A DNA stretch of 64,000 nucleotides from Opisthocomus hoazin (taxonomy: Eukaryota; Chordata; Aves; Opisthocomiformes; Opisthocomidae): the NCBI RefSeq assembly GCF_030867145.1, contig NC_134439.1:8655379-8719378 (forward strand), in the 5' to 3' direction. Positions 8,369 through 57,632 of the stretch are shown piece after piece. A program made the position numbers and the translations under genes. The notes beneath the pieces were generated by a model. That model saw only the letters and a list, made by a program, of their open reading frames with translations, made no database searches and had not been told where the DNA came from. The first letter of the stretch is position 1, and each line of letters opens with the position of its first letter.

Positions 8369-9435
8369 TCCAGGCACATGTCAAGGCCAGCCTCCCTCAA
8401 GAAATCTTTCTGAAGAGCTTCATTCTGCCAAGGTGCTGGGGGCAGAGACATCAGCAGATGGTGCCACGGGAGCCCTGCCAGGGCAGGTCCTGGGGGAGCC
8501 GAGGCAGGAGGAAAGACTTCGCGCAGCTCATTTCAGGACTAACAACACGCACTTAAGGCTCACACAGTTGCTGTGCCTGGAAACCTTCACTGCTGACACT
8601 TCCAGGAGAGATTATCCCATGGGATTAGAACCCCAGGAGCCAAATCCCTTATTTTCCAGGGCAGGCAGTCATCTGCGAGTGAAGACCTGGTGTCCATCCA
8701 AACCATCCTGGGGACGGCTGTGTGCAGCACGAGGGCGGACACCCCGTCCTCCACGGGCAAAGAAGAGCAAGTGGCACGTGGGGACGGCGCGAGGACACTC
8801 ACGTCTCTGTCTGGCTGCTGGACAAGCCCTGTGGAAGGCCGCTTGGTTTCTTCGGTTCCAGCTGGACATCTCTCTGGAGGGTTGCTGGGGAGCTGCTGGG
8901 AGGCATTTCCTCCGGAGCCTGGAGCAATCACCCAAAAGCCCAGCATCAGCCCACATCCGAGCAGAGTTTGGTCCCCAAACTCCCTGATAGCTGGGAAGTG
9001 AAGGGGTTTCTCTAGCAGCCCACAGCCCAGCACGCACTGAGCCAGCACCCCGTGGACCGGCTGAGCTCCTGCCCTCTCCCAGTGTGCCCAGTGTACACCA
9101 CGAGGGTATCTGAGCCCCCACGCAGGCCCCACTCGGCAAGCCAAGCCCCCTCCCATTGCCCACCCCTCCTCTCACCTCCTCCTCCAATCCCAGCTCCAGC
9201 TGAACAGGACATCCAGCTTCCAGCTCCTGCTCCATCTCCTCATGCAGGGCCAGGAATGTCTTCGGGACAGCTTCCTCACACCTACAGAAGCCAGAGAAGC
9301 CACTGAGCCAGAGAAGATGCTCTGGTGAAGCCATCACTTTGCGTAAGAAGTTTGCGGATGGCTCAGACAAGATTTGGCCTCTGCAACCCAGCTTCCCCTG
9401 GTGCCTGCACACTGTGGTCCATCAGGCTCGGAACT
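8369..9435 (+). repeat. Inverted duplication, left arm segment 4
   Basis: Partner of 56,566-57,632; see that entry. Confidence 0.93.
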
Positions 9436-9717
9436 GTTGCCACCGATGGAGGCCTTCAGCAAGCGCATGAGCTTGCTGTCCCCGTAGGGGATGTGGGTTT
9501 TCTTGCTCTGTACCAAGAGATCAAGAGTCTGCTCAGCTTTGGGCCCTTGGGCACTCAGCTCCCAGTCCTGCATCGCAAGGGGACGGCCACGCTCATCCCA
9601 TGGCACCTCTCGGAGCCCGGCCCAGGCTGCCGTCCTCACCGCACCGGCTGGACCATCGCTTGAGCACACTCCTTGTACTCACCCACCCCGGAGAGGCCAC
9701 GCCAGGAACAGCGTTAC

Positions 9718-9915
9718 CTTCGCATCAGCCAGGGCACTGGTGACGTTGATGAGGGTCAGCAGTGAGCAGCTGATGTTGGCACCCTCCTGGAGCCGCTCTC
9801 CCTTGGCGTTGGTGACAGAAGCACCCTCTGAGCCGGCCAGGTCGATCAAGCTCATCTTGGCCACTTGCAGATCCCGAGAGAGGCCGCCAACACGGTCCTG
9901 CTGCTTCGCATGGAT
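9718..9915 (-). CDS. KIF18B: KIF18B switch II exon with altered signature residues
   Basis: A 198-bp exon (66 codons, phase 0 at both ends, CTCGCAG acceptor, GTAACG donor) reading [20 protein letters not shown] then [19 protein letters not shown] and [20 protein letters not shown]. The kinesin signature normally has SER after DLAG and NINRSLLAL; here these are SEG and [10 protein letters not shown] partial copy at 56,163-56,228 keeps NINRSLLAL. Confidence 0.85.
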
Positions 9916-11348
9916 CTGCGAGGACAGACATGGGTGAGGCTGCAGCTCCACAAGCCACACAGGGTTGCTGGTTGGAGCCAGCATCACCAGTTTCAGTGTT
10001 TATAACAGGGTGGCAAAGAGGATCACGCAGCCTGTGAGCTCGAGCAGGGGGAAAAGAGGAGCCCAGCACGCTGAGAAGACGAGCCAAAAGCTCGGCGATG
10101 ACTCGACTAGCAAAGCCGCAGAAAGGATCTCAACAGAAGCGCCAGAGCTACGGAAAATAATCAGCGTCTCCTACGGTTGGTGAACGATGGGGTTACAGCT
10201 GGCCGGGTCCCCCAAGGGCAGCACGCCAGCCCAGAGCCCCGGCGCGACCCGGGAAGCGCTCAGGCACGGTGGCAGCCCCAGCCCTGACTCCGACCGTGGA
10301 TGCTGCTGGCAGCCCAGACGCCGAGCAGGGCTGCAAGCCCCAGACGCAGCCTCGCAGTGCCCCAGGGCCGCACCCAGCCCGCGCTTTCAGTGCCAAGCCC
10401 AGTTCCCGGCTGGTGCGCGCGAGGGGGGACACAGCTGCTGAGACTCACTTGACAGCATCGCTCTGCAGCTTCCCCTTCTGCATCCCTGAAGGTCTCGCAG
10501 GAGAAGCAAACGCTTCCCCCACCGCCCTGCAACACCCTCAGCCCCGCAGGAGCAGCTCCGGCGTGGGCCGGAGGGGCCGTGGAGATGCTGGAGGCCGGTA
10601 ACTGGCCCTGCATCCTCACCAGACCATGGTTTGCCTGCCGGGAGGCCGAGCCGGCAGCGGGAAGGGCAGATTTCCAGCACAGCTAATGGATTCGCCGCAG
10701 GCAGGAATCCAGCACCCACCGACAAGCCCAGCTGGGAAAGCATCCAGACACCTGGACTTCCCCCCTGCACGCAGCAACGGGCAAGGCACCAGGTTCAGAC
10801 TGAAATTACAGTCGGAGCTCTCCATCTCCCCACGCAGCCGTGACAGCCCTGCTAATTCAGGGAAGGGCCTGGCTGGAATTGAAATCAACTTGCAAGTTTG
10901 CGTAGGAGAGCACGAAGAACCCAGGGAACAGGTTTGCAGAGCCCTGGGGGAGCGTAATTCCTGGCTCAGCGCCGAGGGGACATGATGAGCCGCCGGCCTG
11001 CCCACGGCCCCTGCGGGCAGGCACACGCAGGAGCCGGCGATCATCGTCCCCCTCTGCTCGGGGTCGGGTGCTGGGTACGGCTCCCACACGCTGAGCTGAG
11101 AGGAGCCAAAAGCACAAAGCGAAATTTCAGCCCTTGGGACACACGGCAAGGAAGAGAAAATTCCCCGACACCGGATGGGAGAAGCCAGCAGCACCGGTTC
11201 ACCAAACTGGGTGGGTGAGCCCGCTTCCAGTCAGACTCTGGCTGGGCTGGGGACACCCCGAGCGTGGCATTACAGGGTCCAGACCAACGCCAGCTCCTAG
11301 TGACGGTGACCCGGAGGCGGGAGGGGACAGGGCCCGGCCGCAGCATAC

Positions 11349-11506
11349 CTCCTGGTAGGAGACAAAGACCTCACAGCTCTTCTCCTCCTTTCTGGCCTCG
11401 ATCTTCTAGTCCAGCTCCACCATGGTGAGGTACGTGATGCCGGGGCTCATCTCCGAGCCCAGCATGGTGGAGGTTTTTCCTGCTCCTGTCGCGCCATAGG
11501 CAAACA
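11349..11506 (-). pseudogene. KIF18B: KIF18B P-loop exon with an in-frame stop
   Basis: Encodes the ATP-binding loop [11 protein letters not shown] and the [11 protein letters not shown] segment, then an in-frame TAG (11406-11408), after which the same frame continues KIEARKEEKSCEVFVSYQE into a GTATGC donor. Human KIF18B has an arginine at about the stop position. Frame and splice sites are otherwise kept, so the stop looks recent or is a consensus error. Confidence 0.85.
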
Positions 11507-12847
11507 CTGGGAGGAGAAAGGGTGAGTGCGTGAAACGCTCATTAATGACGGGGAGCGGGGCGATGCCCACTCCTTCCCGGAGAGGAGCGTTCCCCGCAGC
11601 AGCTCCTGCGGCAGGGGTCACTTGCAGGCTTCACGCAGACGAGGCAAAGCTAATTACCTCTGTGCTGGCTGCACTACCCTTTAGCACAATTTTTTTTCCG
11701 TGTTTCAACCTCTCTAATTTAGCAGACAGAGACAGAACAAGTCCCCAAACCATCGCCCGCTTGGAGGCCGTGCACGTGTCACCCCTGAACCTTCCCTTTC
11801 ACAAGCTGTGCTCCCTGGTCTCTCACCAGAGAGTGTTTCTTCCTCCAGACCTTGTCATTCACCTCATTTTGCCCTCCCATCTTTCAACACCCTCTTTCAA
11901 GCATCACCACCAGAGCAGGACACGCTCATCTAGAGAGCCTCAGCCCTTCTCCCCATTAGCAGCGCTCGGCGCTTCGCAGCGCTCTCATTTGAGGATCCTG
12001 GAGTGATTTTATGCAGATAGAGACACGAGACATGCCTGCCAGGTGGGCACGGTGACAGAGGCAGCCTTCAGCACCTCGCAGAGCACGCCGGAGACCCAGC
12101 AATAGCATCCTCCGGTCCCAGTGCCCGGCCCGGCGCGGGATTAGACAGGAGAGCAGTCGTCTCCCGCTCTCTGCCTGCCTCACAGAAGTGATGTGCTCGT
12201 TAAGCCGCTCGTCTGCTGACAGCCTGCGAACGGCACGAGGGTCTGCGGCGGCGGGCGAGGAGCTTTCAGACCCAGCAAGGAGCTTTCCAGACCCGGCTTT
12301 CCAGTGCTGCCAGCCTGGGAGCACGTGCGAGGAGCACGGCAGCCCCCAAAGCACCCCGAGACCCCGCTCCCAAACTCGGCGTCCTCCCAAAGCTCTGCCC
12401 ATCACGGCGATCCGGGCTGGGAGGGGACGGCAAAACCAAGGTGCTCTTTGCACCACGCATCCACCTGACATCTTCCCACCCTTCCTGCCCCAGCAGGGCG
12501 GAGAGCAAGTGATCCTCCTCCCTTAAAATGCCTGGAAAGCGCCTGCCCACCCTCAACCTAAGCCCTTCTGTGACTCTAACAGCACTGCATGTTTTGCTGC
12601 CCCTCATTTACCTGCTGAGATGAGACAACACTTGAATGTCAGGATCGTCCCTGTCCTGACCACACCTGCAATCACCCCAGCTTGGTGCCACCAACAAGTT
12701 TAAGCCTATATGTTTTTCCATCACTGTTGTGTTCCCCCCTCTCCCCAGCTGCTTGGGGGCTTCTAAAATAAATCCACAGCTCCCCTGAGCCCACCCAACC
12801 CAGGAGCGGGGCTCCTGCAAGGATCAAAGGCGTTTGCCGGGTCTCAC

Positions 12848-13148
12848 CGGAGCAGTTGTAGCCATTGAGGACGCTGTGCAGCACCTCGCGGGTGGTGTGC
12901 TGGAACACCTCCTCCTGCGTGGCCCCTTCCCCAAACACCCGGTCGAAGACGAACTTCGGGTCCTTGCCCTGCTGCTTGGGCCTGCGGGCGGGCAGCACGC
13001 TGCCAGCGGGCTCCTCAGGGTCGAAGATGATCATGTGCTGGTCGACGACGTGCAGGATGGGGTGGGTGGCACGCTCGCAGGGGGCAGGGGGCCGCACCCG
13101 GACCATGACAGCCATGGTGCCCTCCTTGGGCAGGGTGCTCAGCACCAT
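12848..13148 (-). CDS. KIF18B: KIF18B first coding exon (motor beta-1 to alpha-1)
   Basis: ATG at 13148 gives MVLSTLPKEGTMAVMVRVRPP, then a basic insert and FVFDRVFGEGATQEEVFQHT, ending GYNCS with a GTGAGA donor in phase 1 that fits the next exon (VFAYGATG). The start agrees with the short N-terminus of human KIF18B. A TCTTTCAG acceptor near 13187 shows that at least one noncoding 5' exon lies upstream, probably near 13,795. Confidence 0.85.
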
Positions 13149-13384
13149 GGCGACGGGGGGCAGATGCAGGGGGCAAACGATGCTGACTGAAAGACACAGC
13201 TCTGAGCTCCGAAATCTCATGGGCCTCACACGCTCTGGGAGGGGGGGACGCGTCAGCCGGAGGGGTGGGAGCCTGAGGGTGGGCAAGGCCTCGCGACCCC
13301 TTCCTGTCCTAACCCCTGCCAGTACGCCCCCCGCCCTACATCCCCTCCCCAGTGACACCCCCTTTGGGCCCCTAGAGCTCTCCT

Positions 13385-14519: not shown

Positions 14520-14835
14520 GGGACAAGGGACCCCCCCTGCACCCCGGGCTGGGCCTTGGGGACAGGGACCCCCCGCAGCACCCCGGGCTGGGCCTTGGGG
14601 ACTTGGACCCCCCCTGCACCCGGGGCTGGGCCTTGGGGACAGGGACCCCCCCCTGCACCCCGGGCTGGGCCTTGGGGACAGGGACCCCCCCCAGCACCCC
14701 GGGCTGGGCCTTGGGGACAGGGGACCCCCCCCTGCACCCCGGGCTGGGCCTTGGGGACAGGGACCCCCCCCAGCACCCCGGGCTGGGCCTTGGGGACAGG
14801 GACCCTCCCCACACCCCGGGCTGGGCCGAGCAGGG
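14520..14835. repeat. About 39-bp minisatellite downstream of C1QL1
   Basis: About eight copies of a unit containing CCCCGGGCTGGGCCTTGGGGA followed by CAGGGACCCCCCC and a short variable end. A shortened inverted relative lies near 56,100-56,160. Confidence 0.9.
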
Positions 14836-15214
14836 GTCGGGGTGTTTGGGGGGGGTGGCAGGAGGACCCCGTCCCCAGCGTGGGGACATTGGCTCTGCCC
14901 CCGTGGGGACACAGACAGCAGACGGGCCAGGTCACAGCTCTGCTTTACCGTGGAGGCACCCCGGGACGGGCGGTGAGGTGTGTCCCCCCCCCAGCGCAGC
15001 CCCCCGGCGCCGGGGCACCCTATAGACATCTGTACATATATACACGCCGGCGGGGACCCCCAGCAGCACCCCGGGGGTTGGGGGCAGCGGGGGGCCGTGG
15101 GGCCGAGCGGGGGACCGGGGTGCAGTGGGGCAGCGCAGCCCCCAGCCTCTGGCCAGCCCCCCGCGCCCCCCCCGCCCCGAATTAGCAGTTGTGGGGTGAG
15201 CTGATGGGAAAGGG

Positions 15215-15545: not shown

Positions 15546-15546
15546 C

Positions 15547-22410
<6,864 letters not shown>

Positions 22411-23129
22411 GGGGCAGATTGTGTTCGGGCGGGGGTACTGCCAGCCCCCTGTCCCCCCCCACGCTGTCACCGCCGTGTCACCAGCTCCTTCCCTGGTTCT
22501 TTTCCCCACCGTTGTCGTGTGTGCCCCCCCCCCCCACTCCTCGTTATCTTTCTTTTTTAACGAGTGCCTAAAAATACGCCTCGCCGAGGTCACGGGCTGC
22601 GTGCGTCACCCGCCGGCGCGGTGCCGCGGTGGCCCGGGTGGGCAAGGGGCTCTGCGTGGGGACGGGGTGCCCGGGGCGGGGACACGGGGGACGCAGGCAG
22701 CCCCGCTCGCATCGGGGCACTCGTCTCACCCGCAGGGTCAGGGGACATCCCTGGTGCCGGTGTCCTCTGTGTCCCCGTGGCATGGCCACCACCCCGGGGC
22801 CACCACCTCCCCACCCCAGCCCACCACGTCCCCACGGCATGGCCACCACCCCAGGCCACCACGTCCCCACGCTGTGTCCCTGTAGCCCAGCTGCAGAGTT
22901 GGGATGGCTTCAACACCAACCCGGGGCAGCAGCACCCTACGGATGGGGACAACACCCCAGGTGCCCCTGGCTGGAGACCCCAGGGTGTCCCCTGTCCCCA
23001 AGCCCTGCATGGGAGCGGGTGCAGCGCAGCCCCCCGAGGTGGCTCCAGACACCCAGGGACGGGCAACTGCGTGGCAGCCTCCGAAGGGCCACATTTGGTG
23101 GCCCAGGGGTGGGAGAGGGGACCAAGCTG

Positions 23130-23330
23130 GGAGGTGACGGCAGTGGCTGCGGTGGCGGCGGTGGCGGCGGTGGCAGCGGTGTCGGCAGTGGCGGCGGTGG
23201 CGGCGGTGGCAGCAGTGGCGGCGGTGGCAGCGGTGGCAGCAGTGGCGGCGGTGGCAGCGGTGGCGGCGGTGGCTGCAGTGGCAGCGGTGGCAGCAGTGGC
23301 GGCGGTGGCAGCGGTGGCAGCTCTGCTCGA
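23130..23330. repeat. Imperfect GTGGCN hexanucleotide repeat
   Basis: About 200 bases of GTGGCG, GTGGCA and GTGGCT units, purine-rich on the plus strand. It is preceded by GGGAGAGGGGACCAAGCTGG, which is also found next to two further inverted copies (about 46,779-46,970 and 48,595-48,780). Confidence 0.9.
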
Positions 23331-24127
23331 CGCCAGCCGCCGCCGTCCCCCTGCAGAGGCCGAGCAAACAGCAGCTCCCGCAGGGTCGATGCGCGGCCCA
23401 GCCCACGGCTGTTTGCTTTGCCGGCGCGACGCGGGAGGGGGGCGGGCGACGCGAGGGGACGGCGGCAGCCGGGGAGGGGGCCCCGATCGCTGCTCCGGGG
23501 GCGCGGGTCCGGCTGGGGTGGGGGCTGTGTCCCCTGCCGCTCGCTGGGGAGCTCATTCAGGAGGATCTGGGGAAGGGCGAGGGTGGCGGGTGGGGATGGG
23601 GGTGTTGGTGGGGGCCGGCGCTCCGCTGTGCCTCAGTTTCCCCTCCCGACGGCGCAGCGGTGCTGCAGATGCTGCCCGTAGGGCCACACGTCGCCGGGGG
23701 TGACACGGACACCGCGCCTGCGTGGCACCGTGGCACCCACTGCTGTGGGTTCGCTCGGGCGGGCGGCGCTGATGGCTCAGCAACAATTAGGACTTGGCGC
23801 TGGAAATAACGAACGACCCCCATGTTGGCCCATGCTGACGAGAAGGGGGAGGGAGCTGGCGTTCGCAAGCTGTTCCTGATGACTTTGGGTGCTGTCCCCC
23901 AAAACCACGCCGTGCCTCAGGATGGGGCCTGGGAGGGGCAGTGAGAGGGGGACGCTCGGCTGTGGGCAGTGGGGGCAGGGCTGGGCCCTTGGCCCCCAGC
24001 CGGGGTGGGCAGGACACCCTGGGGCGGTGGGAGCCTGGGCTGCACGCGCTGGGGCAGAGCCGGGAAGATGGCCCGGTCTGCTGAGCTGCCACCTGGGGCT
24101 TCCTCTGCTGGTTCCCACCACCCTGGG

Positions 24128-24315
24128 GACATCCATCCACACATCTGTCCATCCATCCATTCACCCATCCACCCATCCACCCACCCATCCATCCATCCAT
24201 CCGTTCACCCACGTCCTTGCACCCACGCATGCATCCATCCATGAACACATCCACGTCTCCATGCATGCACATACCCACCGATCCCTCCCTCCATCCCTCC
24301 GTTCCTCCATCCCCC
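24128..24315. repeat. CCAT tetranucleotide-rich repeat
   Basis: Imperfect CATCCATCCACCCATCC microsatellite grading into CCCTCC. The inverted copy at about 47,575-47,785 sits in an interval about 31 bases longer, the main length change within this duplicated block. Confidence 0.9.
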
Positions 24316-24904
24316 CCAGGTGTCCGTGCGTCCGTCCCTGCAGCCAGCCACCCAGCCAGCTGGGAGCCCCGCAGCCCCTGGCCGTGCTGTCACCCGGTCC
24401 CAAGGGGGGACACCAGCCACCCCAGCCACGCAGCCTCCCGACCTGCCTCACTTCCATCCCTGGGAAAGGACACCACGACCACCTCATCGGGACACAGAGG
24501 TGATTAAAAGGAGGAATTAACGAGGAGTTTTCCAGGCTGTGGGTGCCCGAGGAGATGCGGCAGCAGCACAGATCAGTGCAGGAGCAGGAGGAGGAACCAC
24601 GGACCGACCCCAAGGTCGAGATGACCCCGGCAGGAGATGACACTCACCTCTCCGTGCCAGGCTGGGCAGGAAACAGGCTCGAAACCCCCAGGGCTGGAGG
24701 TGCCTCTGGGCAGGGATGGGCTGGGAGGTGTCCAGTGCCCGCGTGCTGTCATGAGTGTGTCAGGGCTCAGCGGGCAGGGGACCGGCGCAGACACATGGAG
24801 ATGTCCCCACTCAGCACAGAGCCCAGGAGATGAAGGACACGCGAGGATGGGACTGCAGGATGGAGGTGAGGGCGGGGCAGGTCCCAGCGCCCGGCCAGAG
24901 GTGG

Positions 24905-25580
24905 GCAGACAGTGCTGCTGGCTGGCTGCCTCACCACTGGCTCGTTGGCTGGTGGCCAGATGGCTACCTGGCGGGTTGGATGCACGGGTGGCTCATTGGC
25001 TAGTTGGACACATGGATGGCTCGCTGGCTGGCTGGACGCATGGATGGCTCATTGGCTAGTTGGACACATGGATGGCTCATTGGCTAGTTGGACACATGGA
25101 TGGCTTGTTGGCTGGTAGGCCACATGGATGGCTCACTGGCTGGTTCCATGCTTGGCTAGGGAGTTGGCCACTTGGCCACCTGGCTAGCCGCTTGGCTAGA
25201 GGGCTGGTTGGCTGCCTGGCAGGTAGGTGACTGGCCAGCTGCTTGGCTGGCTGGTTGGCCAACTGGCTGGTTGGCTTGAAGGCCAACTAGATGGCTGGTT
25301 GGCTAGCTAGCTGTCCAGTTGGTTGGCTGGGTGGTTGGTAGCTGACTGGCTAGCTGGCAGGTGGCTGGCTGGTTGGCCCACTAGTTGGTTGGTTGGTTGG
25401 TAGGTGGCTAGCCAGTTGGCTGGCTGGCCAGCTGGCTGACCAGTTGACCAACAGGCTGGTTGGCTAGCTAGCTGGTTGGCTGGCTGGCTAGTTGGCCCAG
25501 CAGGCCAGTTTGCTAGCTGGCTGGTTGGCCACCAGACTGGTTGGCTGGCCAGTTGCCCCGGGGGCTAGCAGGCTGGCCAG
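24905..25580. repeat. TGGCTGGTTGGC-type repeat tract
   Basis: About 670 bases of TGGCTGGTTGGCTAGCTGG-like units, orderly and long-period at the left (GACACATGGATGGCTCATTGG units at about 25,005-25,130) and short-period and degenerate at the right. The duplicated block ends at 24,889, directly beside it. Confidence 0.85.
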
Positions 25581-25739
25581 CGGCGGCTGATCGGCCATCG
25601 GCCGGCTGGGTCAGCCCCGGCCCCGGGGACGTCCCAGCCCAACGCCAGCACCGTCCCTGCCCAACGCGGGGAGCCCAGGTGCAGGTGGGGGGGGCAAGGT
25701 GAGGGTGGCACATCCCGTGTCCCTGTCCCTGTCCCGCTG

Positions 25740-25845
25740 CCTCTCATTACGGACGCGGCGGGGCCCGCCACCCTCCTGCCGCGCAGCAATTAAGGGCTGC
25801 CAACACCGCTGCTTAATTAGAGCCCAGCTGATGGGGCCGGCTGGT
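25740..25845. promoter_or_regulatory. AT-rich element with TTAATTAG motifs upstream of C1QL1
   Basis: Block containing GCAGCAATTAAGGGCTGCC and GCTTAATTAGAGCCC in GC-rich surroundings, similar to the other homeodomain-motif islands. It lies about 4.5 kb upstream of C1QL1. Function is inferred only. Confidence 0.3.
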
Positions 25846-27395: not shown

Positions 27396-27399
27396 GGTG

Positions 27400-42900: not shown

Positions 42901-44149
42901 GCTGCACAGGCAGCGGCCGGGAGGATTCTGTTTGTCGCATCTGACGCCGCAGCATCCCGAGGTGGAGGTGACCCGGGAGAAGGTGTCAGCTCCCAGTGCC
43001 CGCCCTGGGACGTGCTCACAAACTCCCCTTGTGCCGGCAGCTGGCGGTGTTGGAATTGGTGAGAGATCTGTCGGGTGCGTTTGTTGCGGCTCTGCGGTGG
43101 GTGGTTTGGCTCATCCTGGGACCTGAACGCGGCCGTCCCGGCCACTTGGGGATCTGCCAGGTCACGAGGAGTTAAAGAAAAACCCAACCAACCCAACACC
43201 ATCACGCATTTGTCACCAAAATCAATAGCGGTGTCAGCGCCGCTGTGCTGTGATTACTTTTGCTGTCATGTCGGCGCTCGCGTGTCCCGGGCGGAGGTGA
43301 AGCCCTCCCCGGGGCGGGAGCAGAGGCGAGATGTCCCCCGGGCGGGTCCGGCAGCGCGCGGGCTGCCGATCCCCGCAGAGCTGCGGCTGCGTGGCTGCTC
43401 CTGGCTCTGCTCCGCCGCGAGCGCTTCACGCGCTGCTGGGGGGGAAAGGGGGGCTTCTCGTCGAACCCCGTTTGTGGAGCAGCTCACCCTGCGCGGCTGC
43501 CTGGTCCCCGTGCCGGCGAGCGAACGCTTGCTGGCTCCCGGTCTTTCCCCTGGGGCTCTGCCGATGGATGGGAATCTTTTTTCCCAGCAAAAGCCGTCTG
43601 CAGTCTCCGCTGCTGCCGAGGTGTTGCTGGGAGCTCAGCTGCTCCGTGTGCTGCACACCGGCCGTCTCCGCTGCGCGGGGCGACGGCTGCCCGGCGCGTC
43701 GGGTGTCTGCGGCGGGAGCGTCAGCGGCCTCGCCGTCCGCAGGCATCCTCACACCCAGCCCTCCCCACTTCACCCCGCAGAAAACCACTCCCCTGTCCGC
43801 TTTTCCCTGCTTTCAGCACTCGCTCGCTGCTCAGCCCAGGGGTTGTTTTTAAACCTTGTTCGCCTCCCGGCTCGCTCCTTTTTCTGGCCTTGCTGAAATA
43901 GTTGGATGCTGCTTCGGAATAGTTTCCAGCGTGTTTCTTCGTTCCGTTCCCTGCTCCACCCTCTTCACCGCTGTCTGGGGTTTGGTGAAGACACGAAGCC
44001 GGTCTGGGAGCAAGTGGCGCTCGGGGGGCTTCCAGGCAGGCCAGCGCCTTCGGTTCCCGGAGCCGTGCCGCTGTCCCCGCTGTGAACGCAGCGATCGTTT
44101 TGGGGGTGGGAGGAAGGAGCCACCTCTATAGCGTAGATTAAAACCATAG
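39999..44149. other. NMT1 intron 1, no gene seen
   Basis: Moderately GC-rich intron-like sequence. Both strands were checked for NMT1 exon 2 (lysine-rich) and later NMT1 exons without success. No RNA gene or further repeat was identified. It has no counterpart in the left half. Confidence 0.6.
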
Positions 44150-45090
44150 ACTGGCTTGGATCCCCGAGCTGGGATGTGGGGAAAGGAGAGGATGACCTCA
44201 GCCAGTTTGCTGATGACACAACACTGGAAGGAGTGGTGGACACACCGGCAGGCTGTGCTGCCATCCAGCAAGACCTGGACAGGCTGGAGAGCTGGGCAGA
44301 GGAACCTGATGAGGTTCAACAAGGGCAAGGGCAGGGTCCTGCCCCTGGGGAGGAACAACCCCAGGCACCAGTACAGGCTGGGGCTGAGCTGCTGGGAGCA
44401 GCTCTGTGGAGAGGGACTGGGAGTGCTGGGGGACGACAGGGTGACCATGAGCCAGCAGCGTGCCCTGGGTGCCAAGAAGGCCGATGGGATCCTGGGGTGC
44501 ATCAAGAGGAGTGTGGGCAGCAGGGCGAGGGAGGTTCTCCTCCCCCTCTGCTCTGCCCTAGTGAGGCCCCATCTGCAGTGCTGTGTCCAGTGCTGGGCTC
44601 CCCAGTTCAAGAAAGATGAGGAGCTACTGGAGAGAGTCCAGCGGAGGGCTACGAGGATGAGGAGGGGACTGGAGCATCTCTCCTCCGAGGAGAGGCTGAG
44701 GGAGCTGGGCTTGTTCAGCCCGGAGAAGAGAAGGCTGAGAGGGGACCTTCGAAATGCCTCTAAATATCTGCAGGGTGGGGGTCAGGAGGATGGGGCCAGA
44801 CTCTTTCCAGTGGTGCCCAGCGACAGGACAAGGGGCAATGGGCACAAACTGGAGCAGAGGAAGCTCCAGCTGAACCCGAGGAAGAACTTCTTCCCTCTGA
44901 GGGTGACGGAGCCCTGGCCCAGGCTGCCCAGGGAGGCTGTGGAGTCTCCTTCTCTGGAGATATTCCAGCCCCGCCTGGCCGCGGTGCTGTGCAGCCTGCT
45001 CTGGGTGACCCTGCTTGGGCAGGGGGCTGGGCTGGGTGACCCCAGAGGGCCCTGCCAACCCCTGCCGTGCTGGGATTCTGTGGTTCTGTG
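44150..45090 (+). mobile_element. CR1 LINE 3' portion (right arm)
   Basis: Plus-strand CR1 ORF2 fragment: end of the reverse transcriptase domain with the QFADDT box (about 44,203) and LDRLESWAEEPDE, then MSQQRALGAKKADGILGCIK through SPSLEIFQPRL, and the 3' signature TGGGATTCTGTGGTTCTGTG ending at 45,090. The switch between frames near 44,300 shows it is an inactive, 5'-truncated copy. It is longer at its 5' end than the left-arm CR1. Confidence 0.92.
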
Positions 45091-46774
45091 AACGGGTGCA
45101 GGCAGAATTTAGAGAGTTGCGGGGTTTGGGTTGAGTGTGGAGAGATCTCGGTGCAGAAACCGTGAGAGACGTCGTCTGCTCCGGGCTGGCCGGGGGGTTA
45201 CCAGCATCCTCCCAGCCTCGAGGCCATCAGCAAGCGCAGACCCTGTGTTTGGTGCCACGTTTGCACGCTGACAGACGCAAGTTTGCTGCTCAGAGCTGTG
45301 ATTCCTCGTGTCCGTTGGCTGCCGGTGACTGTGCTCCCTTCCAGGTAGCGCGGGGATGCGATTTCCTTACGGGCTGGTGCGCTCTGCGTCCCGGTTCTGG
45401 CGGAGGGATCTCATCTCCTCTTGCACCCCGGCTGTAGAGCCCAAGCAGGGCTCTCCCTCTCCGTCCTCGCGTTTCTTGGTCCGCGCTGAGATGTTGTCTG
45501 AAATCTTCCCCGTTGTCACGGATCCTGGGTCACCCTCGACAACCCCGCCAGGAACGTCCTCTGATTTCTGGTGCGACTGCGGCTGGACGGGTGCGGATGC
45601 TGAGGGGGAGCGAGCTGGGGGGAGCTGCAGGTGACCGGCCTGGATGAGCGCGTGTCCGGAGTTAGCAGCGTCCAGGGAAGCCTCGTGTAGCCCAGCACTG
45701 TTCTGCAGCCTGTAAAACAGGGGTACCCAGCTCAGAGGGGTGCCGGCATCGTCATAAATTCTCGGTGATGCCCTGAGAACGTGTGAAAATGAGCTTTGAA
45801 TGGAGTCGCCTGTGTGGGGTAAATATTTGCTGTGCACAGCGTGAACAAACCGGCCCTGTCCGGGCGTGTTGTCGAGCTCTTCTCTTTGCGTTTCAGAGCG
45901 CGATGTTCCTGGTTGGACTCTCGGGTGGAATCGCGTCGGGGAAGAGCACGGTGGTGGCCGTACTGCGGGAACTGGGCTGTGCCGTGGTCGATGCCGATGT
46001 CATTGCCAGGGAGGGTGAGTTTTGCAGCGCTGCTCTTTCTCGCCGAGGTTCCCCTGACAACCGGGCTGGGCGCTGGGAGCGCAGGCGGCAGAGGGGGCTC
46101 TGGGTACGCTGGACAAGCGCTTCCCTCCCGTTCCCCAGCCAAGGAGGCTGGCGGAGCGGCTGTCTCAGGGGGACTGGGACGAGGATTTATTTTTAATAAA
46201 GAAAAAAAATAGTATCCTGTCATAACAAACACCGTGGGGAGATGTTGCCCGGAGCTTCTCTCTCCTGGAGTGCAGTGTGTCTCAGCTCTGAAAGCCAACT
46301 CTGGGCAAAGTCCGTGTGGTTGTCTGCAAAGCGCGTTCCCTCGGCTGATCTGGTGTTCCCCCTCAGCGCCACGACACCCACCATGTGACGTGGCTGCGTG
46401 AGGTGGGACCACTGACACGTCTGAAGGAGAATTCCCCTCTGGGGTGGGTGTTGCTCGGCTGTGAACACCGAGGTTGTTCCACCAAATCACTCGTGTCTTC
46501 CTGCGGCCGAGAAAAAGAGGCGCCAAATATCCCAGAGCAGAGGGGATTTGGTCCGTGCTGCTGCACAGCACCTGCCTGGCGCTGCTCGGGAAACGTGCTG
46601 GCCTGGCCGCAGAACGGGCCCAGAGCTCCAGACCTGCTGCCTCAGCGGAACCGGAGCAGAGCCCGCTCTCCCCGCTCACCCGCGCGGTGCGGGGCGAGAC
46701 GTTAACCCCTCCGTAGCGCCGGGATAACGAGGAGAGCGGCGCTCGCTGCGGGAAGGGCTGCTGATTCTGTATGC
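45091..46774 (-). repeat. Inverted duplication, right arm segment 1
   Basis: Partner of 33,424-35,107. The left edge is the 3' end of the CR1 at 45,090; the right edge passes directly into a displaced GTGGCN-repeat fragment. Confidence 0.95.
45897..46014 (+). pseudogene. DCAKD: Duplicated DCAKD first coding exon (orphan)
   Basis: Exon with intact TTTCAG acceptor, ATG at 45,903, Walker A (GGIASGKST) and GTGAGT donor, identical in protein to the genuine exon at 34295-34184. DCAKD exons 2-4 are not copied, so it cannot make a kinase. It lies in the same orientation as NMT1 and downstream of NMT1 exon 1, so it could act as a cryptic exon for NMT1 transcripts. Confidence 0.9.
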
Positions 46775-46992
46775 GACCGCAGCCACCGCTGCCACTGCCG
46801 ACTCTGCAGCCACTGCAGCCACCGCTGCCACTGCAGCCACTGCTTCCACTGCCACCACTGACACTGCTGCCACCACTGACACTGCTGCCATTGCTGACAC
46901 TGCTACCACTGCAGCCACTGCCAACAGTGCTGCCACCGCCGTCACCTCCCAGCTTGGTCCCCTCTCCCACCTGACACACGCATGACAGCACG
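46775..46992. repeat. Shuffled junction: second GTGGCN-repeat copy plus a 23-bp templated piece
   Basis: On the minus strand this holds GGGAGAGGGGACCAAGCTGG and a GTGGCN array like those at 23,109-23,330, then TGACACACGCATGACAGCAC, the reverse complement of a sequence also present near 24,742-24,763 with one mismatch. It joins material from around 33.4 kb, 23.1 kb and 24.9 kb of the left half within about 220 bases. Confidence 0.8.
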
Positions 46993-47574
46993 CGCTGGGA
47001 CCTGCCCCGCCCTCACCTCCATCCTGCAGTCCCATCTTCGCGTGTCCTTCATTTCCTGGGCTCTGTGCTGAGTGGGGACATCTCCATGTGTCTGCGCCGG
47101 TCCCCTGCCCGCTGAGCCCTGACACACTCATGACAGCACGCGGGCACTGGACACCTCCCAGCCCATCCCTGCCCAGAGGCACCTCCAGCCCTGGGGGTTT
47201 CGAGCCTGTTTCCTGCCCAGCCTGGCACGGAGAGGTGAGTGTCATCTCCTGCCGGGGTCATCTCGACCTTGGGGTCGGTCCGTGGTTCCTCCTCCTGCTC
47301 CTGCACTGATCTGTGCTGCTGCCGCATCTCCTCGGGCACCCACAGCCTGGAAAACTCCTCGTTAATTCCTCCTTTTAATCACCTCTGTCTCCCGATGAGG
47401 TGGTCGTGGTGTCCTTTCTCAGGGATGGAAGTGAGGCAGGTCGGGAGGCTGCGTGGCTGGGGTGGCTGGTGTCCCCCCTTGGGACCGGGTGACAGCACGG
47501 CCAGGGGCTGTGGGGCTCCCAGCTGGCTGGGTGCTGGCTGCAGGGACGGACGCACGGACACCTGGGGGGGACGG

Positions 47575-47785
47575 AGGAACGGAGGGATGGAGGGAGGGAT
47601 CTGTGAGTATGTGGATGCATGGAGACGTGGATGTGTTCATGGATGGATGCATGCGTGGGTGCAAAGACGTGGGTGAACGGATGGATGGATGGATGGGTGG
47701 GTGGACGGATGGACGGATGGGTGGATGGGTGGATGGGTGGGTGGATGGGTGAATGGATGGATGGACAGATGTGTGGATGGATGTC
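47575..47785. repeat. CCAT-type repeat, inverted copy
   Basis: GGATGGATGGATGGGTGGGTGG array, the counterpart of 24,128-24,315, with a few extra units. Confidence 0.9.
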
Positions 47786-48594
47786 CCCAGGGTGGTGGGA
47801 ACCAGCAGAGGAAGCCCCAGGTGGCAGCTCAGCAGACCGGGCCATCTTCCCGGCTCTGCCCCAGCGCGTGCAGCCCAGGCTCCCACCGCCCCAGGGTGTC
47901 CTGCCCACCCCGGCTGGGGGCCAAGGGCCCAGCCCTGCCCCCACTGCCCACAGCCGAGCGTCCCCCTCTCACTGCCCCTCCCAGGCCCCATCCTGAGGCA
48001 CGGCGTGGTTTTGGGGGACAGCACCCAAAGTCATCAGGAACAGCTTGCGAACGCCAGCTCCCTCCCCCTTCTCGTCAGCATGGGCCAACATGGGGGTCGT
48101 TCGTTATTTCCAGCGCCAAGTCCTAATTGCTGCTGAGCCATCAGCGCCGCCCGCCCGAGCGAACCCACAGCAGTGGGTGCCACGGTGCCACGCAGGCGCG
48201 GTGTCCGTGTCACCCCCGGCGACGTGTGGCCCTACGGGCAGCATCTGCAGCACCGCTGCGCCGTCGGGAGGGGAAACTGAGGCACAGCGGAGCGCCGGCC
48301 CCCACCAACACCCCCATCCCCACCCGCCGCCCTCGCCCTTCCCCAGATCCTCCTGAATGAGCTCCCCAGCGAGCGGCGGGGGACACAGCCCCCACCCCAG
48401 CCGGACCCGCGCCCCCGGAGCAGCGATCGGGGCCCCCTCCCCGGCTGCCGCCGTCCCCTCGCGTCGCCCGCCCCCCTCCCGCGTCGCGCCGGCAAAGCAA
48501 ACAGCCGTGGGCTGGGCCGCGCATCGACCCTGCGGGAGCTGCTGTTTGCTCGGCCTCTGCAGGGGGACGGCGGCGGCTGGCGTCGAGCAGAGCT

Positions 48595-48780
48595 GCCACC
48601 GCTGCCACCGCCGCCACTGCTGCCACCGCTGCCACCGCCGCCACTGCTGCCACCGCTGCCACCGCAGCCACTGCCGCCACCGCTGCCACCGCAGCCACCG
48701 CCGCCACCGCTGCCACCGCCGCCACCGCCGCCACTGCCGCCACCGCCGCCACCGCCGCCACCGCAGCCACTGCCGTCACC
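48595..48780. repeat. GTGGCN hexanucleotide repeat, inverted copy
   Basis: GCCACCGCTGCCACCGCCGCC-type array, counterpart of 23,130-23,330. Unit order differs although the flanking offset is constant, showing internal shuffling or slippage. Confidence 0.9.
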
Positions 48781-49957
48781 TCCCAGCTTGGTCCCCTCTC
48801 CCACCCCTGTGCCCCCAAATGTGGCCCTTCGGAGGCTGCCACGCAGTTGCCCATCCCTGGGTGTCTGGAGCCACCTCGGGGGGCTGCGCTGCACCCGCTC
48901 CCATGCAGGGCTTGGGGACAGGGGACACCCTGGGGTCTCCAGCCAGGGGCACCTGGGGTGTTGTCCCCATCCGTAGGGTGCTGCTGCCCCGGGTTGGTGT
49001 TGAAGCCATCCCAACTCTGCAGCTGGGCTACAGGGACACAGCGTGGGGACGTGGTGGCCTGGGGTGGTGGCCATGCCGTGGGGACGTGGTGGGCTGGGGT
49101 GGGGAGGTGGTGGCCCCGGGGTGGTGGCCATGCCACGGGGACACAGAGGACACCGGCACCAGGGATGTCCCCTGACCCTGCGGGTGAGACGAGTGCCCCG
49201 ATGCGAGCGGGGCTGCCTGCGTCCCCCGTGTCCCCGCCCCGGGCACCCCGTCCCCACGCAGAGCCCCCTGCCCACCCGGGCCACCGCGGCACCGCGCCGG
49301 CGGGTGACGCACGCAGCCCGTGACCTCGGCGAGGCGTATTTTTAGGCACTCGTTAAAAAAGAAAGATAACGAGGAGTGGGGGGGGGGGCACACACGACAA
49401 CGGTGGGGAAAAGAACCAGGGAAGGAGCTGGTGACACGGCGGTGACAGCGTGGGGGGGGACAGGGGGCTGGCAGTACCCCCGCCCGAACACAATCTGCCC
49501 CCCCAAACCTCGTTAAGCCCCAGGAATAATCGCCTCCTTGAAGCCGGCTAATTGATTTTTGCACGCTGATTAAATTAAAGCCTCTGCGGGAGCTGGGGGG
49601 GGCGCGGGGGCGGTCGGTGGGCTGCCGAGTGTCCCCCCGTCCCCCCCTTTGGGCGTGGGGGGCTGGCGTCTGTCCCCGGGCCTGGGGACACTGCGCGGGA
49701 AGGGGCCGCACCCCAGGGTGGGGTTGATTTTGTTTGGGGGGCGGGGGGTGACGATGACCCCGCGGACTCCCCGAGGTGCCACCGGGGTTGATGCCACCTC
49801 GGTGCTGTCACCCGGGGCCCCCAAAGCCGTGTGACGAGCGGCAGCGGGGGCAGCCCCGAAGGCTTCTCCAGGCCCGTGCGTCCCCCCGGCCCCCGCCGCC
49901 CGGCCTCCCCCGGCGCTGTCACCCGCCATCGCGTCCCGCTGTCCCCGCCGAGGCTGA

Positions 49958-52352
<2,395 letters not shown>

Positions 52353-55300
52353 AGCGCTGGGGACACGCTCCGCCACCCTGCTCCTGCTGCCCTGATGTGT
52401 CCCCAAGGTCCCCTCGGTCCTTCCCTTGGCCCCGCAGACGTGCCTCTGGGGTGCCTTGGGGGTCCCCGCGGTGTCCCCGGGGGGGCAGGGGTGCCTTGGG
52501 GTGTCCCCGGGGGGGACAGGGCTCCTGCGCAGGGGACAGTGTCTGCGGTGGCCTGGAGGGGGACAGTGCCTGCGCGGCTTTTGGGGTGCTGCACCCCCAG
52601 CCCGGAGCCGGCTCTGCTGCCGCTGTGTCAGGAGAGACGTCCCCATCCCCGGCTGGGCTGCGTGGGGACACCGGGGGGGGGGACACCCCGAGGCTGGCTC
52701 CATCCCCGACCCCCCACCCTGCTCCGGCATCCCCCCCCACCCCCCTCCATCCCCAAATCCTCCCAAGACGCAGCCTCTCCATCCCCGCGGTTGTGGGGTG
52801 ACCCCCGAATCGCTGCCCCTTCCCACGCCGTGTCCCCCCCCCGGCCACCACTCGAGGCACAAGACGTGGCCGTGACCCCCGAAATGCCACCCGAGCTCCA
52901 TCCCCTGGGGTCTCACCGCCGCCGCCAGCCTCGCCGGGATTCATCCCGCTCCACTCCCGCTTCCCGTCCGTTCCCCCAGCACCAAGCCCCCCGCTGCGTT
53001 CCTGCCCCAGGATGCGACGCCGGATTGGCCCAAAACGGAGTCAGCACCCAAAAAAAGCCGGGGGGGAGGGGGGGAAGTGGGAGCCCCAGCACGGCCCCTG
53101 CGCTGCACCCCTCGCTCCGAGAACCCCCGAGCCGGGAGCGCAGCGGGGGCAGGAGCCGCTCGGCATTTTTTCTCCATCCAAACAGCTTCAATTTTCTTTG
53201 ATTGGGTTTTTTTTTGCGCCCCCCCCACTCCAGCCCCAAATTTTGGGGGGTCCTGGCGACGCTTGGCACCGCCGGCTCTTTCTCCCAAGCAGCATCCGTG
53301 TAAGCCCGGGCTGAGCATCCCCAAAAAACCACCTCACCCCCTTTTTCCTCTCCCAAAATATTTTCAGGGACCCCCCCCAAACCTTTCCCCTGCCCCCCAC
53401 CCCCTGCCGAGCTCCGACCCCCCCAGCTCGGTGGGGATCGACGCTCCCGGTGCTCCCGGCTGAATTTCCAGAAGCTACGGAGCCCCTCGTCGAGAGGAAC
53501 CGCGCTCGGTCGGGCGCGCGATGCAGCTTAATTAACCGGTGGTTAATTACTAACGAGGAATCGCCGCTCCAATATCTATAAAGCAGCGGCTCGGGGGGGC
53601 GGGGGAGCGCTTCAGCGGGCTGGCTCCGGCGGGAGAGTTTGAAAAAGGGACCCCAGAAATGCCCCGAATAATTGAGAAATGAGGTTAATTAGGGGTTTGT
53701 TGCCAAAAGTGCCCCATCGCCGGCGAGGCTGGGGGGGCCGGGGCTTTCCCGGTGGATGAGGCTCGATCCCGGCATCCTCCGAGGGAATCGTAACTTGGGG
53801 GGCCCCCTCCGACCCCCCGGCTTTCCTTTGGGCGCTGCCGGTTTCGGGCGCAGCCCGTCACCCCTGCGTCAGGGCTGGAGGTAATGAGAGCCAGGGGAGC
53901 CCCGGCGGTGGGAGGGAGCTGCTGCTGGTGGTTAATTAGCATTAATTATTTGTATTAGTCTGTAGACGAGGCGAGCGGGGCAGCGGGCTGGGGGGGCGAT
54001 GCTGGACGGACGGACGGACAGGGGGGTTTTGGGGTCCCTGTGGCAGGAGTGACCGTCCTGGCTGCTGAAGGGGTGGGCGGCCGTGCCATGGCCTGGGGGG
54101 GGACACAGCCCCGAGGGGGTCCCCGTGGGTGGGGGCCTGGGGACGGTCCCCAAGGGTCCCTGTCTGCCCAGAGCCTGCGGTTGCTGCCGTGACCCCCCCA
54201 CGGCTCCCACCTCCATGGCCTGCGCACGGCCGTGGCATGGGAAACTGAGGCACGGAGCAGGACGACGGGGATGAGGCCATCGAGGGAGACGTGGTGGCAG
54301 CCCCCACCTCCTCGGCCTCCGCGGTGCCGGGAGCGGCTCAGCCCGGCCCGGTGCTGCCATTTATCTTCCCTGGTTAGCGTGAAGGGCTGGCGGGCGCGCG
54401 GTGACGAGGCGGCTCCTTAACGAGGGAAGACGGATGGCACTGGGTGGCTCTGGCTGCGGCGGGGGGGGATGATGGCGGCAGAGCCCAGCACCAAACGGCT
54501 TTTCCTGATTGTCCTTCCCCACCACTTCTTCACCGTCTCCTCTTCCTCGGCACGACCCCAGGTTAGGCAGCATCCCTGGGAGATTGGGGCGTTGTCACCG
54601 ACAGATTCCCCGTGCCCTTCGCCCTCGGGGACTCTCGTGGTGGCAGGGTAGCCACAGGGTGACTTTTAACAGGGTGACAGCATTGGTGATGGCACGAGGG
54701 ATATGGCTGCGTGAGTGAGAGCAAGCCCTATGGAACTGCCTGCTGGGCCATCAGTAGGTTCCAGAGTTAACAGTGTCTGAACACACCGTCGCAGGCTGCG
54801 TGTGGACTCGGGGAGATGCAGCTGTGTTCCCAAGGATGAGGGGACCCCCCGGACTCCTGTCCTGGGGGCAAAGGACAGGACTCCATGGGGACACCGCTCC
54901 TTCCCCCGCCGGCTCTGGGACCCCACAGCCGCTCGGCGGTGCCTCCCCCGCAGGCACGAGCCAATTAAGAGCCCATTCTCCTCGGCTGTAATTAGGAGCC
55001 TCTTCTCTCCGTGCATCGCTGTTGCCTTTCACTTGGGCTCGTCACTGTCACCCCGCGCCGCGCGATCTCCCCGCCAGGCGCCGGCGTGGATTTGATTACT
55101 CAAATCATTCTGCTCCAGCCACGGCGCTGCTTTGCCAGGCGGTTACGGCACCGCCGGCTCTGCCGGCACCTCCCGGCCTTGCCCTCCGGCACCGGGGAAA
55201 TATTTATTCGGGGGAGCATCTCACCCCGCAGCGGGTCGGGATCCGGGCGAGCAGCGAGGCTTGGTGTGGGGGGGTTTGAGCTGAGCCGGCTCAGCCCTCA

Positions 55301-55384
55301 CCGCACGCTCGAGGGTCCCGGGACGCTCGTGGGAAGATGTGTGGGAATGCGCTGGGGTCAGCAAGTTGGCTCAGGGCTGGGAGA

Positions 55385-55782
55385 CGGGGTCCTGCGTCCG
55401 AGTCGTGATCCTGCATCCGAACTGGGAGCTGGGGACCTGGGGCTGAGCCGTGGTCCCGTGTCAGAGCCGTGGTCCTGCCTCCGAACTGGGAACTGAGGTG
55501 CTGTGTCCGAGGTGTGGTCCCGCAGCGGAATCTGGAGCCGGGGTCCCGTGTAGGAGCTGTGGTCCCACATCCAAACCCAGAGGCAGGGTCCTGTGTCGGA
55601 GCCGTGGTCCTGTGTCCGGATCTGGAGCTGGGGTCCCACGTCTGAGCTGTGCTCCTGTGTCTGAACCCGGAATCGGGGTCGCATATCAGAGCTGTCATCG
55701 TGCATCTGAATCCAGAGATGGGGTTCTGTGTCTGAGCCGTGGTCCTACATCCAAATCCTCAGCCGTGGTCCCACATTCGAAC
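55385..55782. repeat. About 30-bp minisatellite, inverted and shortened copy
   Basis: GTCCTGTGTCGGAGCCGTGG-type units, counterpart of part of 15,930-16,520. The array is cut short and joins directly to sequence matching about 15,150. Confidence 0.85.
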
Positions 55783-56162
55783 CCAGAGGCTGGGGGCTGC
55801 GCTGCCCCACTGCACCCCGGTCCCCCGCTCGGCCCCACGGCGCCCCACTGCCCCCAACCCCCAGGGCACTGCTGGGGGTCCCCACCAGCGTGTATATATG
55901 TACAGATGTCTACAGGGTGCCCCGGCGCCGGGGGGCTGCTCTGGGGCGGGGGGGATACACACGCTGCCCATCCCAGGGTGCCTCCATGGTAAAGCAGAGC
56001 TGTGACCTGGCCCTTCTGCTGTCTGTGTCCCCGCGGGGGCAGAGCCGATGTCCCCACGCCGGAGATGAGGTCCTCCTGCCACCCCCCTAAAACACCCCGA
56101 GTCCTGCTCTACCCAGCCCGGGGTGCAGGGGGGGATCCCTTGTCCCCGAGGACCAGCCCGGT
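55783..56162 (-). repeat. Inverted duplication, right arm segment 3 (C1QL1 3' flank)
   Basis: Matches the reverse complement of about 14,770-15,151 (coordinate sum about 70,936), including the GTGTATATATGTACAGATGT element. It appears more diverged than segment 1. The right end lies inside a shortened 39-bp minisatellite. Confidence 0.85.
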
Positions 56163-56262
56163 AGGGTGCCAACATCAACCGCTCGCTGCTGGCCCTCATC
56201 AACATCATCAGTGCCCTGGCTGGTGCGAAGGTAACGCTGTTCCTGGCGTGGCCTCTCCGGGG
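56163..56262 (+). pseudogene. KIF18B: KIF18B switch II exon fragment, distinct lineage
   Basis: Encodes GANINRSLLALINIISALAG then AK and a GTAACG donor, followed by about 30 bases of intron. Compared with the same stretch of 9718-9915 it differs at 7 of 66 bases, all transitions, about ten times the divergence of the neighbouring arms, and it keeps the canonical NINRSLLAL signature. Confidence 0.85.
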
Positions 56263-56375
56263 CGGAAGCGTTTGCTTCTCCTGGGAGACCTTCAGGGATG
56301 CAGAAGGGGAAGCTGCAGAGTGATGCTGTCAAGTGAGTCTCGGCGGCTGTGTCCCCCCTCGCCGCTGCCTCCCCT
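56263..56375 (+). repeat. Transposed piece of KIF18B intron
   Basis: Matches the reverse complement of about 10,410-10,515 (GAAGCGTTTGCTTCTCCTG, GACCTTCAGGGATGCAGAAG, GTGAGTCTC). In the left arm this lies upstream of the switch II exon in the gene's direction; here it lies downstream, so the order is rearranged. The following 56,376-56,565 has no match that I can find. Confidence 0.75.
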
Positions 56376-56565
56376 CAACTTGAGCCCAGTGGGGCTGCGC
56401 AGGTGAGACTGGTGAAGAAGAGGGACGGAGCTTGGTGTGAGCTCCTGGTGTCCCCCGAGTGAGGAGCCTGCGGGGTTTTAGTGCTGCTTGGAGCCCAGGG
56501 GTCTGTGAGAAAGCAGATGAGCTTCTCTGCTGGTGTGCATCATCATTGCGACTGTGGGCAGGTGT

Positions 56566-57632
56566 AGTTCCGAGCCTGATGGACCTCAGTGTGCAGGCAC
56601 CAAGGGAAGCTGGGTTGCAGAGGCCAAATCTTGTCTGAGCCATCCGCAAACTTCTTACGTAAAGTGATGGCTTCACCAGAGCATCTTCTCTGGCTCAATG
56701 GCTTCTCTGGCTTCTGTAGGTGTGAGGAAGCTGTCCCGAAGACATTCCTGGCCCTGGATGAGGAGATGGAGCAGGAGCTGGAAGCTGGATGTCCTGTTCA
56801 GCTGGAGCTGGAATTGGAGGAGGAGGTGAGAGGAGGGGTGGGCAGTGGGAGGGGGCTTGGCTTGCCGAGTGGGGCCTGCGCGGGGGCTCAGATACCCTCA
56901 TGGGGTACACTGGGCACACTGGGAGAGGGCAGGAGCTCAGCCGGTCCACGGGGTGCTGGCTCAGTGCGTGCTGGGCTGTGGGCTGCTAGAGAAACCCCTT
57001 CACTTCCCAGCTATCAGGGAGTTTGGGGACCAAACTCTGCTCGGATGTGGGCTGATGCTGGGCTTTTGGGTGATTGCTCCAGGCTCCGGAGGAAATGCCT
57101 CCCAGCAGCTCCCCAGCAACCCTCCAGAGAGATGTCCAGCTGGAACCGAAGAAACCAAGCGGCCTTCCGCAGGGCTTGTCCAGCAGCCAGACAGAGACGT
57201 GAGTGTCCTCGCGCCGTCCCCACGTGCCACTTGCTCTTCTTTGCCCGTGGAGGACGGGGTGTCCGCCCTCGTGCTGCACACAGCCGTCTCCAGGATGGTT
57301 TGGATGGACACCAGGTCTTCTCTCGCAGATGACTGCCTGCCCTGGAAAATAAGGGATTTGGCTCCTGGGGTTCTAATCCCATGGGATAATCTCTCCTGGA
57401 AGTGTCAGCAGTGAAGGTTTCCAGGCACAGCAACTGTGTGAGCCTTAAGTGCGTGTTGTTAGTCCTGAAATGAGCTGCGCGAAGTCTTTCCTCCTGCCTC
57501 GGCTCCCCCAGGACCTGCCCTGGCAGGGCTCCCGTGGCACCATCTGCTGATGTCTCTGCCCCCAGCACCTTGGCAGAATGAAGCTCTTCAGAAAGATTTC
57601 TTGAGGGAGGCTGGCCTTGATGTGTGCCTGGA
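56566..57632 (-). repeat. Inverted duplication, right arm segment 4 (KIF18B tail region)
   Basis: Reverse complement of 8,369-9,435 with constant coordinate sum 66,001 and about 1.2% divergence. It includes the candidate exons corresponding to 9281-9176 and 8990-8803. The left edge coincides with the point where kinesin homology stops in the left arm (9,435/9,436); the right edge abuts 28S rRNA sequence. Confidence 0.93.

Follow-up and report, generated by a model that had tools for sequence, protein, structure and literature searches.

The DNA analyzed here (the window, 64,000 nucleotides) corresponds to positions 8,655,379-8,719,378 of C26, a small, GC-rich contig of 10.9 Mb from the hoatzin (Opisthocomus hoazin). 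The window carries copies of GFAP, KIF18B, C1QL1 and DCAKD together with the first exon of NMT1, and this block of neighboring genes presumably corresponds to human 17q21.31. Part of the block recurs in inverted orientation in the right half of the window, which ends in LRRC37 DNA. The window was compared with the stretches of C26 at 6.27-6.36, 6.835-6.855, 8.645-8.655 and 8.719-8.809 Mb, and genes were located with human proteins and with bird proteins found during the analysis. Judged from these sequences, the region is very probably a genuine mosaic interspersed segmental duplication of a known kind, which took two or more steps to form within a single hoatzin contig. Below, L and R denote the left and right arms of the window, T a further KIF18B copy at C26:8,742,534-8,748,454 and the source the related locus at about 6.27-6.35 Mb.

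Inverted blocks and gene copies in the window

An earlier note on this DNA had described four inverted block pairs, and BLAST of the window against itself bore them out, position by position and far beyond chance. Block A pairs 33,423-35,756 with 44,442-46,775 at 98.7% identity; without the CR1-like repeat that forms its inner part, it covers 33,423-35,107 on the minus strand and 45,091-46,775 (A') on the plus strand, where DCAKD exon 1 lies at 45,903-46,013. Block B (16,138-24,890, minus strand) matches B' (46,992-55,774, plus strand) at 98.3% over 8,788 columns, block C (14,778-15,152, minus) matches C' (55,783-56,161, plus) at 89.5%, and block D (8,367-9,435, minus), which encodes KIF18B residues 441-528 of query P0073, matches D' (56,566-57,634, plus) at 98.6%. 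Between C' and D', two short KIF18B pieces on the plus strand occur in swapped order, with 56,163-56,265 resembling 9,683-9,785 and 56,261-56,362 resembling 10,419-10,520.

The stretches missing from the right arm adjoin tandem repeats at several junctions. A 216-bp tandem stretch of the GCCACTGCT type (46,776-46,991, plus strand) fills the junction at which 24,891-33,422 is lacking, and C' is joined to a 45-bp minisatellite at a CCAGAG common to both sides (55,774-55,783). The right arm retains DCAKD exon 1, C1QL1 exon 1 (50,681-51,256, within B') and parts of KIF18B, while it lacks the DCAKD exons beyond the first, exon 2 of C1QL1 and the first two of the KIF18B exons found, so that the note was right in holding that the deletions remove coding exons; its identification of a recent, block-deleted inverted duplication of the KIF18B-C1QL1-DCAKD region is likewise supported. 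The left arm has a private deletion of its own at 9,435/9,436. Here the right arm (56,360-57,634) reaches 206 bp further into the source, to 6,293,755, compared with 6,293,549 for left position 9,435, and it keeps a KIF18B exon end absent from the left arm, which is a weak match when taken alone (E = 0.31) and has the same residues in the source and in copy T. Every copy has apparently lost pieces independently, because the left arm has this deletion of its own and the source lacks KIF18B residues that are kept in L or T.

Divergence between the arms is uneven, from 0.22% to 9.6% by stretch and 0.2-1.4% in the long blocks. The range of 0.3-1.2% given earlier breaks down in block C (36/374) and in the short KIF18B pieces (8/103 and 5/102). 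Block A outside the repeat has 6 differences in 1,685 positions, block B has 106/8,748, and the CR1-like repeat that makes up the inner 649 bp of A has 22/648. This repeat is more diverged than the rest of A (Fisher p = 3e-8), and C is more diverged than D (15/1,069; p = 1e-11) although its initial 59 bp are identical in the two arms. We rejected sequencing error as the cause of the arm differences, which are mostly substitutions (136 transitions and 49 transversions versus 14 gaps); six of the eight one-base gaps in block B fall in runs of G or C. The arms show no difference in the C1QL1 exon (0/576) or in DCAKD exon 1 (0/111). A constrained C1QL1 exon was considered as proof of selection and rejected, as the surrounding kilobases are nearly as alike.

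The remaining gene copies lie outside the inverted blocks or extend beyond them. The 5' exons of GFAP are found at 99-1,853 (minus strand), with further exons to the left of the window. The left KIF18B pseudogene is traced by protein matches over 5,191-13,229, C1QL1 with both exons spans 15,550-21,231 (20,656-21,231 and 15,550-15,729), and the four coding exons of DCAKD lie within 29,317-34,295, all on the minus strand. NMT1 is represented by exon 1 only (38,560-38,688, plus strand). Six-frame Pfam scans of the spacer between the arms matched no family. The left C1QL1 and DCAKD copies keep all the coding exons found and could be expressed or functional, since the DCAKD exons of the source and the left copy are 98.6-100% alike as protein; the truncated copies of the right arm probably do not function as coding genes.

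KIF18B carries an in-frame TAG in its motor exon at 11,346-11,507 of the window, at C26:6,295,933-6,296,094 and at C26:8,744,628-8,744,789, that is, in L, the source and T, the three copies that hold this exon. In the left copy no match was found for residues 187-256 and 348-440. A supposed stop shared by block D of both arms proved to be a splice donor (AC|GTGAGT) and not a lesion. A genome search with stork KIF18B gave 55 matches, with 52 of 2,190 candidates scored; among the matches scored, those outside C26 are 37-73% identical, as opposed to 74-84% for the main motor exons on C26, and none represents an intact KIF18B. One set outside C26, on contig C7 at 7.767-7.778 Mb (52-73%), is presumably KIF18A. 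Among the 120 best of 4,417 KIF18B relatives, mostly from birds and given under shortened names in multi-species clusters, no hoatzin name can be seen. The TAG in every copy that holds the exon, together with the lack of an intact copy among these matches, suggests that the KIF18B gene that was duplicated had become a pseudogene beforehand, and this mitotic kinesin, found in many other birds, may have been lost in the hoatzin.

Source locus, copy T and the two ends of the inverted arm

Positions 1-45,088 of the window, comprising the left arm and the spacer, are collinear in direct orientation with C26:6,286,848-6,333,113, in BLAST blocks of 87-98% identity. This source lies 2.37 Mb from the window on the same contig and has the order GFAP-KIF18B-C1QL1-DCAKD-NMT1. 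The direct duplicate contains unaligned stretches, the longest of which (4,716-7,743) is nearly absent from the source, and it continues leftward out of the window, at least as far as C26:8,645,379, which matches source position 6,274,555 near CCDC103. In genome searches block A was found at three places, all on C26, namely both arms and 6,320,778-6,322,463 (98%), with no separate haplotig; a piece of block B was also found at three places, the third being C26:6,301,851-6,304,618 (94%).

Segmental duplications are defined in a passage of PMC11821543 as sequences longer than 1 kb with more than 90% identity to another place. The window has 10,153 aligned columns at 95.6% identity to the source and the 8,788 columns between the arms noted above, together with several other BLAST pieces at 87-90%. 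The distance between 6.27-6.33 and 8.66-8.72 Mb on one contig also exceeds the 1 Mb that marks a duplication as interspersed.

In our reading the source is the parent and the window its copy, because NMT1 is complete at the source (matches for residues 1-492 of 496, C26:6,325,924-6,344,448) and reduced to exon 1 in the window region. The source also matches C1QL1 and DCAKD over their full length and GFAP over residues 1-300 of the rod query. The possibility that the right arm had disrupted NMT1 was rejected, given the NMT1 residues 1-492 present at the source.

At the inner junction (J1) the right arm begins inside one of a pair of inverted CR1-like repeats. The left member lies at 35,107-35,756 on the minus strand (source counterpart 6,322,463-6,323,113) and the right member at 44,196-45,091 on the plus strand (source counterpart 6,332,218-6,333,113). 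The source has both members in inverted orientation, among several similar copies nearby, and the repeat pair in which the junction lies was thus already present in the parent sequence. Positions 42,923-45,088 are collinear with the region of the second source element at 96.8% identity, and from about 45,083 onward the sequence is that flanking the first element, which places J1 inside the right member, between about 44,550 and 45,083. A junction within repeat sequence common to both members is as expected from a template switch or an exchange between inverted repeats, and the product is compatible with a replicative as well as with a crossover origin; it is the replicative one that we infer.

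At the outer junction (J7, 57,634/57,635) the KIF18B pseudogene is joined to LRRC37-flanking DNA. The same join recurs about 35 kb further on, at C26:8,748,454 in copy T, where it is identical to that of the right arm across the 100 bases printed and accompanied by 19 differences in 1,215 positions around the junction. An assembly accident at J7 is very unlikely because the same join occurs twice, in diverged copies, and this base-exact recurrence weighs against the idea that the KIF18B junction partner might be an assembly error.

Beyond the junction, an LRRC37 block (58,810-64,000, minus strand) is 94.6% identical to C26:6,841,489 onwards. It contains an open reading frame (ORF) of 559 codons at 60,008-61,687 (minus strand), the large exon of LRRC37, which matches the LRRC37 C-terminal domain and whose named relatives are birds. 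Only three places in the genome match LRRC37, and LRRC37 follows both copies of the KIF18B junction. The large exon was found at 60,008-61,687 of the window, C26:6,842,726-6,844,366 and C26:8,765,565-8,767,241, with search identities of 100, 98 and 89% among the three places; that at C26:8,765,565-8,767,241 is 98% identical as protein. The hoatzin LRRC37 protein P0008 agrees with C26:6,843,194-6,844,330 in 379 of 379 residues of the main exon, and some smaller exons in 80-96%. Both LRRC37 ORFs in the cluster are open, and a single TGA is seen in the searched stretch of the 6.84-Mb match. In the flank of LRRC37 next to copy T, about 14 kb are inserted (C26:8,749,653-8,763,912), with a repeated sequence of roughly 456 bp at the borders.

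A tandem array of a 191-bp unit starts at C26:8,768,824, no more than about 30 bp past the point (8,768,811) where the last LRRC37 homology ends. It is at least 40 kb long, as it continues to 8,809,378, the end of the stretch read, and was matched again near 8,819,000. A search with the unit, in which 40 of 4,548 candidates were scored, placed it on at least 20 contigs, and this satellite may be centromeric or heterochromatic.

Order of the copies and competing explanations

Five stretches of L and R (A, two parts of B covering 3.7 of 8.8 kb, C and D) were set against the source as outgroup. In this order the arms have 28, 112, 31, 46 and 18 differences from the source in common, with 1, 14, 1, 8 and 5 private to L and 5, 17, 1, 26 and 3 private to R. 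These many common and few private differences indicate that L and R are sister copies that split after the copy had left the source. The right copy of C appears to have changed fast, since 26 of its differences are private to R versus 8 to L. The first short KIF18B exon piece behaves differently in that L and T are identical, R differs from them at 8 of 103 positions and has codons nearer to those of other birds, and the source has no match; the outer end of the right arm may have retained some older sequence.

The events can be arranged in two steps. In the first, at least 55 kb, and apparently close to 60 kb or more, of CCDC103-GFAP-KIF18B-C1QL1-DCAKD-NMT1 (exon 1) was copied over 2.37 Mb to a site beside the 191-bp satellite, as homology shows, with the direction taken from the incomplete NMT1. 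LRRC37 DNA matching 6.84 Mb is joined to this first copy, in a direction of copying that is deduced. In the second step, repair or replication proceeding into NMT1 intron 1 would have switched from one CR1-like element to the inverted one upstream of DCAKD and then copied DCAKD, C1QL1 and the KIF18B pseudogene in the reverse direction, giving the inverted arm; the products of this step are observed and its mechanism is proposed from them. Deletions near minisatellites and short homologies, during the second step or later, would have taken the missing exons, and the inverted arm ends at the KIF18B-LRRC37 junction that also exists in copy T.

Several observations weigh against this reconstruction. 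The structure is read from the sequence of a single assembly, and the location of most junctions within or close to repeats favors misassembly as well. The switch point at J1 is apparently not sharp, because informative sites are mixed between 44,447 and 45,065. The 1.2 kb at 57,635-58,809 has no match in the fetched stretches of C26 except in T. The source cannot be ancestral throughout, because it has no match for KIF18B residues 257-378, which are kept partly in L or T. Lastly, one clean event in the second step is not enough to account for the entire arm, because C (36/374) and the KIF18B exon piece (8/103) diverge more than the rest and R keeps codons that resemble those of other birds more closely and are lost in L and T.

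The most probable alternative is an older inverted pair in the acceptor region that was homogenized by gene conversion, with C and the KIF18B exon piece having escaped conversion and showing its true age. The spread of divergence among the stretches (0.22% to 9.6%) fits such a history, as do the high divergence of short pieces with broken homology and the 8 differences in 103 by which the KIF18B exon piece of R departs from the mutually identical pieces of L and T. On the other hand, block D, just 1.07 kb long and equally isolated, differs by only 1.4%, the initial 59 bp of C are identical, and most of the difference in C is private to R (26 versus 8), so that fast change in R explains part of it. 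We regard gene conversion as unlikely to be the better account; since it overlaps with the two-step duplication and differs from it in the age of the arms, the probabilities that we attach to the readings are not shares of a single whole.

Much less probable is an assembly artefact, in which a second haplotype, or a copy from another part of the cluster, would have been fused head to head where repeats lie and the deletions would be skipped repeats. The position of most junctions in or near repeats would agree with it, and the divergence of the long blocks (0.2-1.4%) is within the range of bird heterozygosity, for which a passage of PMC9516828 gives 0.95% in the zebra finch. The same paper lists gaps between duplicates among the signs of false duplications; neither the window nor the joined 154 kb (8,655,379-8,809,378) contains any N, and hence no such gap. 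Moreover, what follows the right arm is LRRC37-flanking DNA rather than GFAP, a diverged copy shows J7 again with base precision, both inverted repeats involved in J1 are found at the source, and the three places of block A are all on C26. The unevenness of the arm divergence is also unlike one haplotype against another, where more even values are expected. The two misjoined haplotypes offered earlier as an alternative are thus unlikely.

The picture given in the note, with an original locus on the left and a single inverted duplicate of it on the right, is barely credible in spite of the full set of C1QL1 and DCAKD exons and the source-like order of the left arm. That arm duplicates C26:6.27-6.33 Mb, complete NMT1 is present in the locus at 6.27-6.35 Mb, and L and R have 18 to 112 differences from the source in common per stretch.

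Relation to known duplications and meaning

Mosaic blocks of duplicated sequence are known from pericentromeric regions of primate chromosomes. The hoatzin duplication resembles interspersed (intrachromosomal) segmental duplications, these primate blocks included, in its blocks of more than 1 kb and mostly more than 90% identity, in the separation of more than 1 Mb on one chromosome, in its mosaic sources and in its place beside a satellite, but it differs in being found in a bird, on a small GC-rich contig, with a satellite that is only a candidate for a centromeric one. False heterotype duplications also yield near-identical adjacent copies in GC-rich bird regions, whereas here there is no gap, the divergence is uneven, a junction recurs and the source is a distinct locus.

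The inner junction is comparable to the products of inverted-repeat-mediated duplication-inverted triplication-duplication (DUP-TRP/INV-DUP) and of microhomology-mediated break-induced replication (MMBIR), as described in PMC4352052 and PMC2621351, in that it combines a junction in an inverted repeat pair, an inverted copy, discontinuous blocks and short homology at a deletion. Unlike those cases, the repeats involved here are CR1-like, and the deletions may be later events.

As in the LRRC37 core duplicon of human chromosome 17, LRRC37 lies at the junctions of a mosaic duplication. It was found here at three places, compared with 18 copies in human according to a passage of PMC6920530, and in one cluster, with nothing that points to LRRC37 as the seed. 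A literature search, by titles only, retrieved no bird paper on LRRC37 with KIF18B, and no relevant publication on LRRC37 in birds or on CR1 and inverted duplication in birds.

Annotation of this region could count extra, partly truncated copies of C1QL1, DCAKD, NMT1 exon 1 and LRRC37. The region is also a parent-and-product case: one contig carries the source, its first copy, the second, inverted copy and the J7 of a further copy, and the inverted-repeat step can for that reason be read almost directly. The duplication is ordinary in kind and unusual in its setting and in LRRC37; what stands out most is the presence of LRRC37, a core duplicon of primates, at the junctions of a bird duplication, along with the KIF18B stop in three copies. 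Birds and primates separated about 300 million years ago, and here LRRC37 is found at junctions of a young mosaic block on the chromosome with the matching gene neighborhood, which makes the core-duplicon question testable outside primates. We consider it rather doubtful that LRRC37 has in birds the role of a duplication core that it plays on primate chromosome 17; if it had, this would point to an old property of LRRC37 or its neighborhood that promotes duplication.

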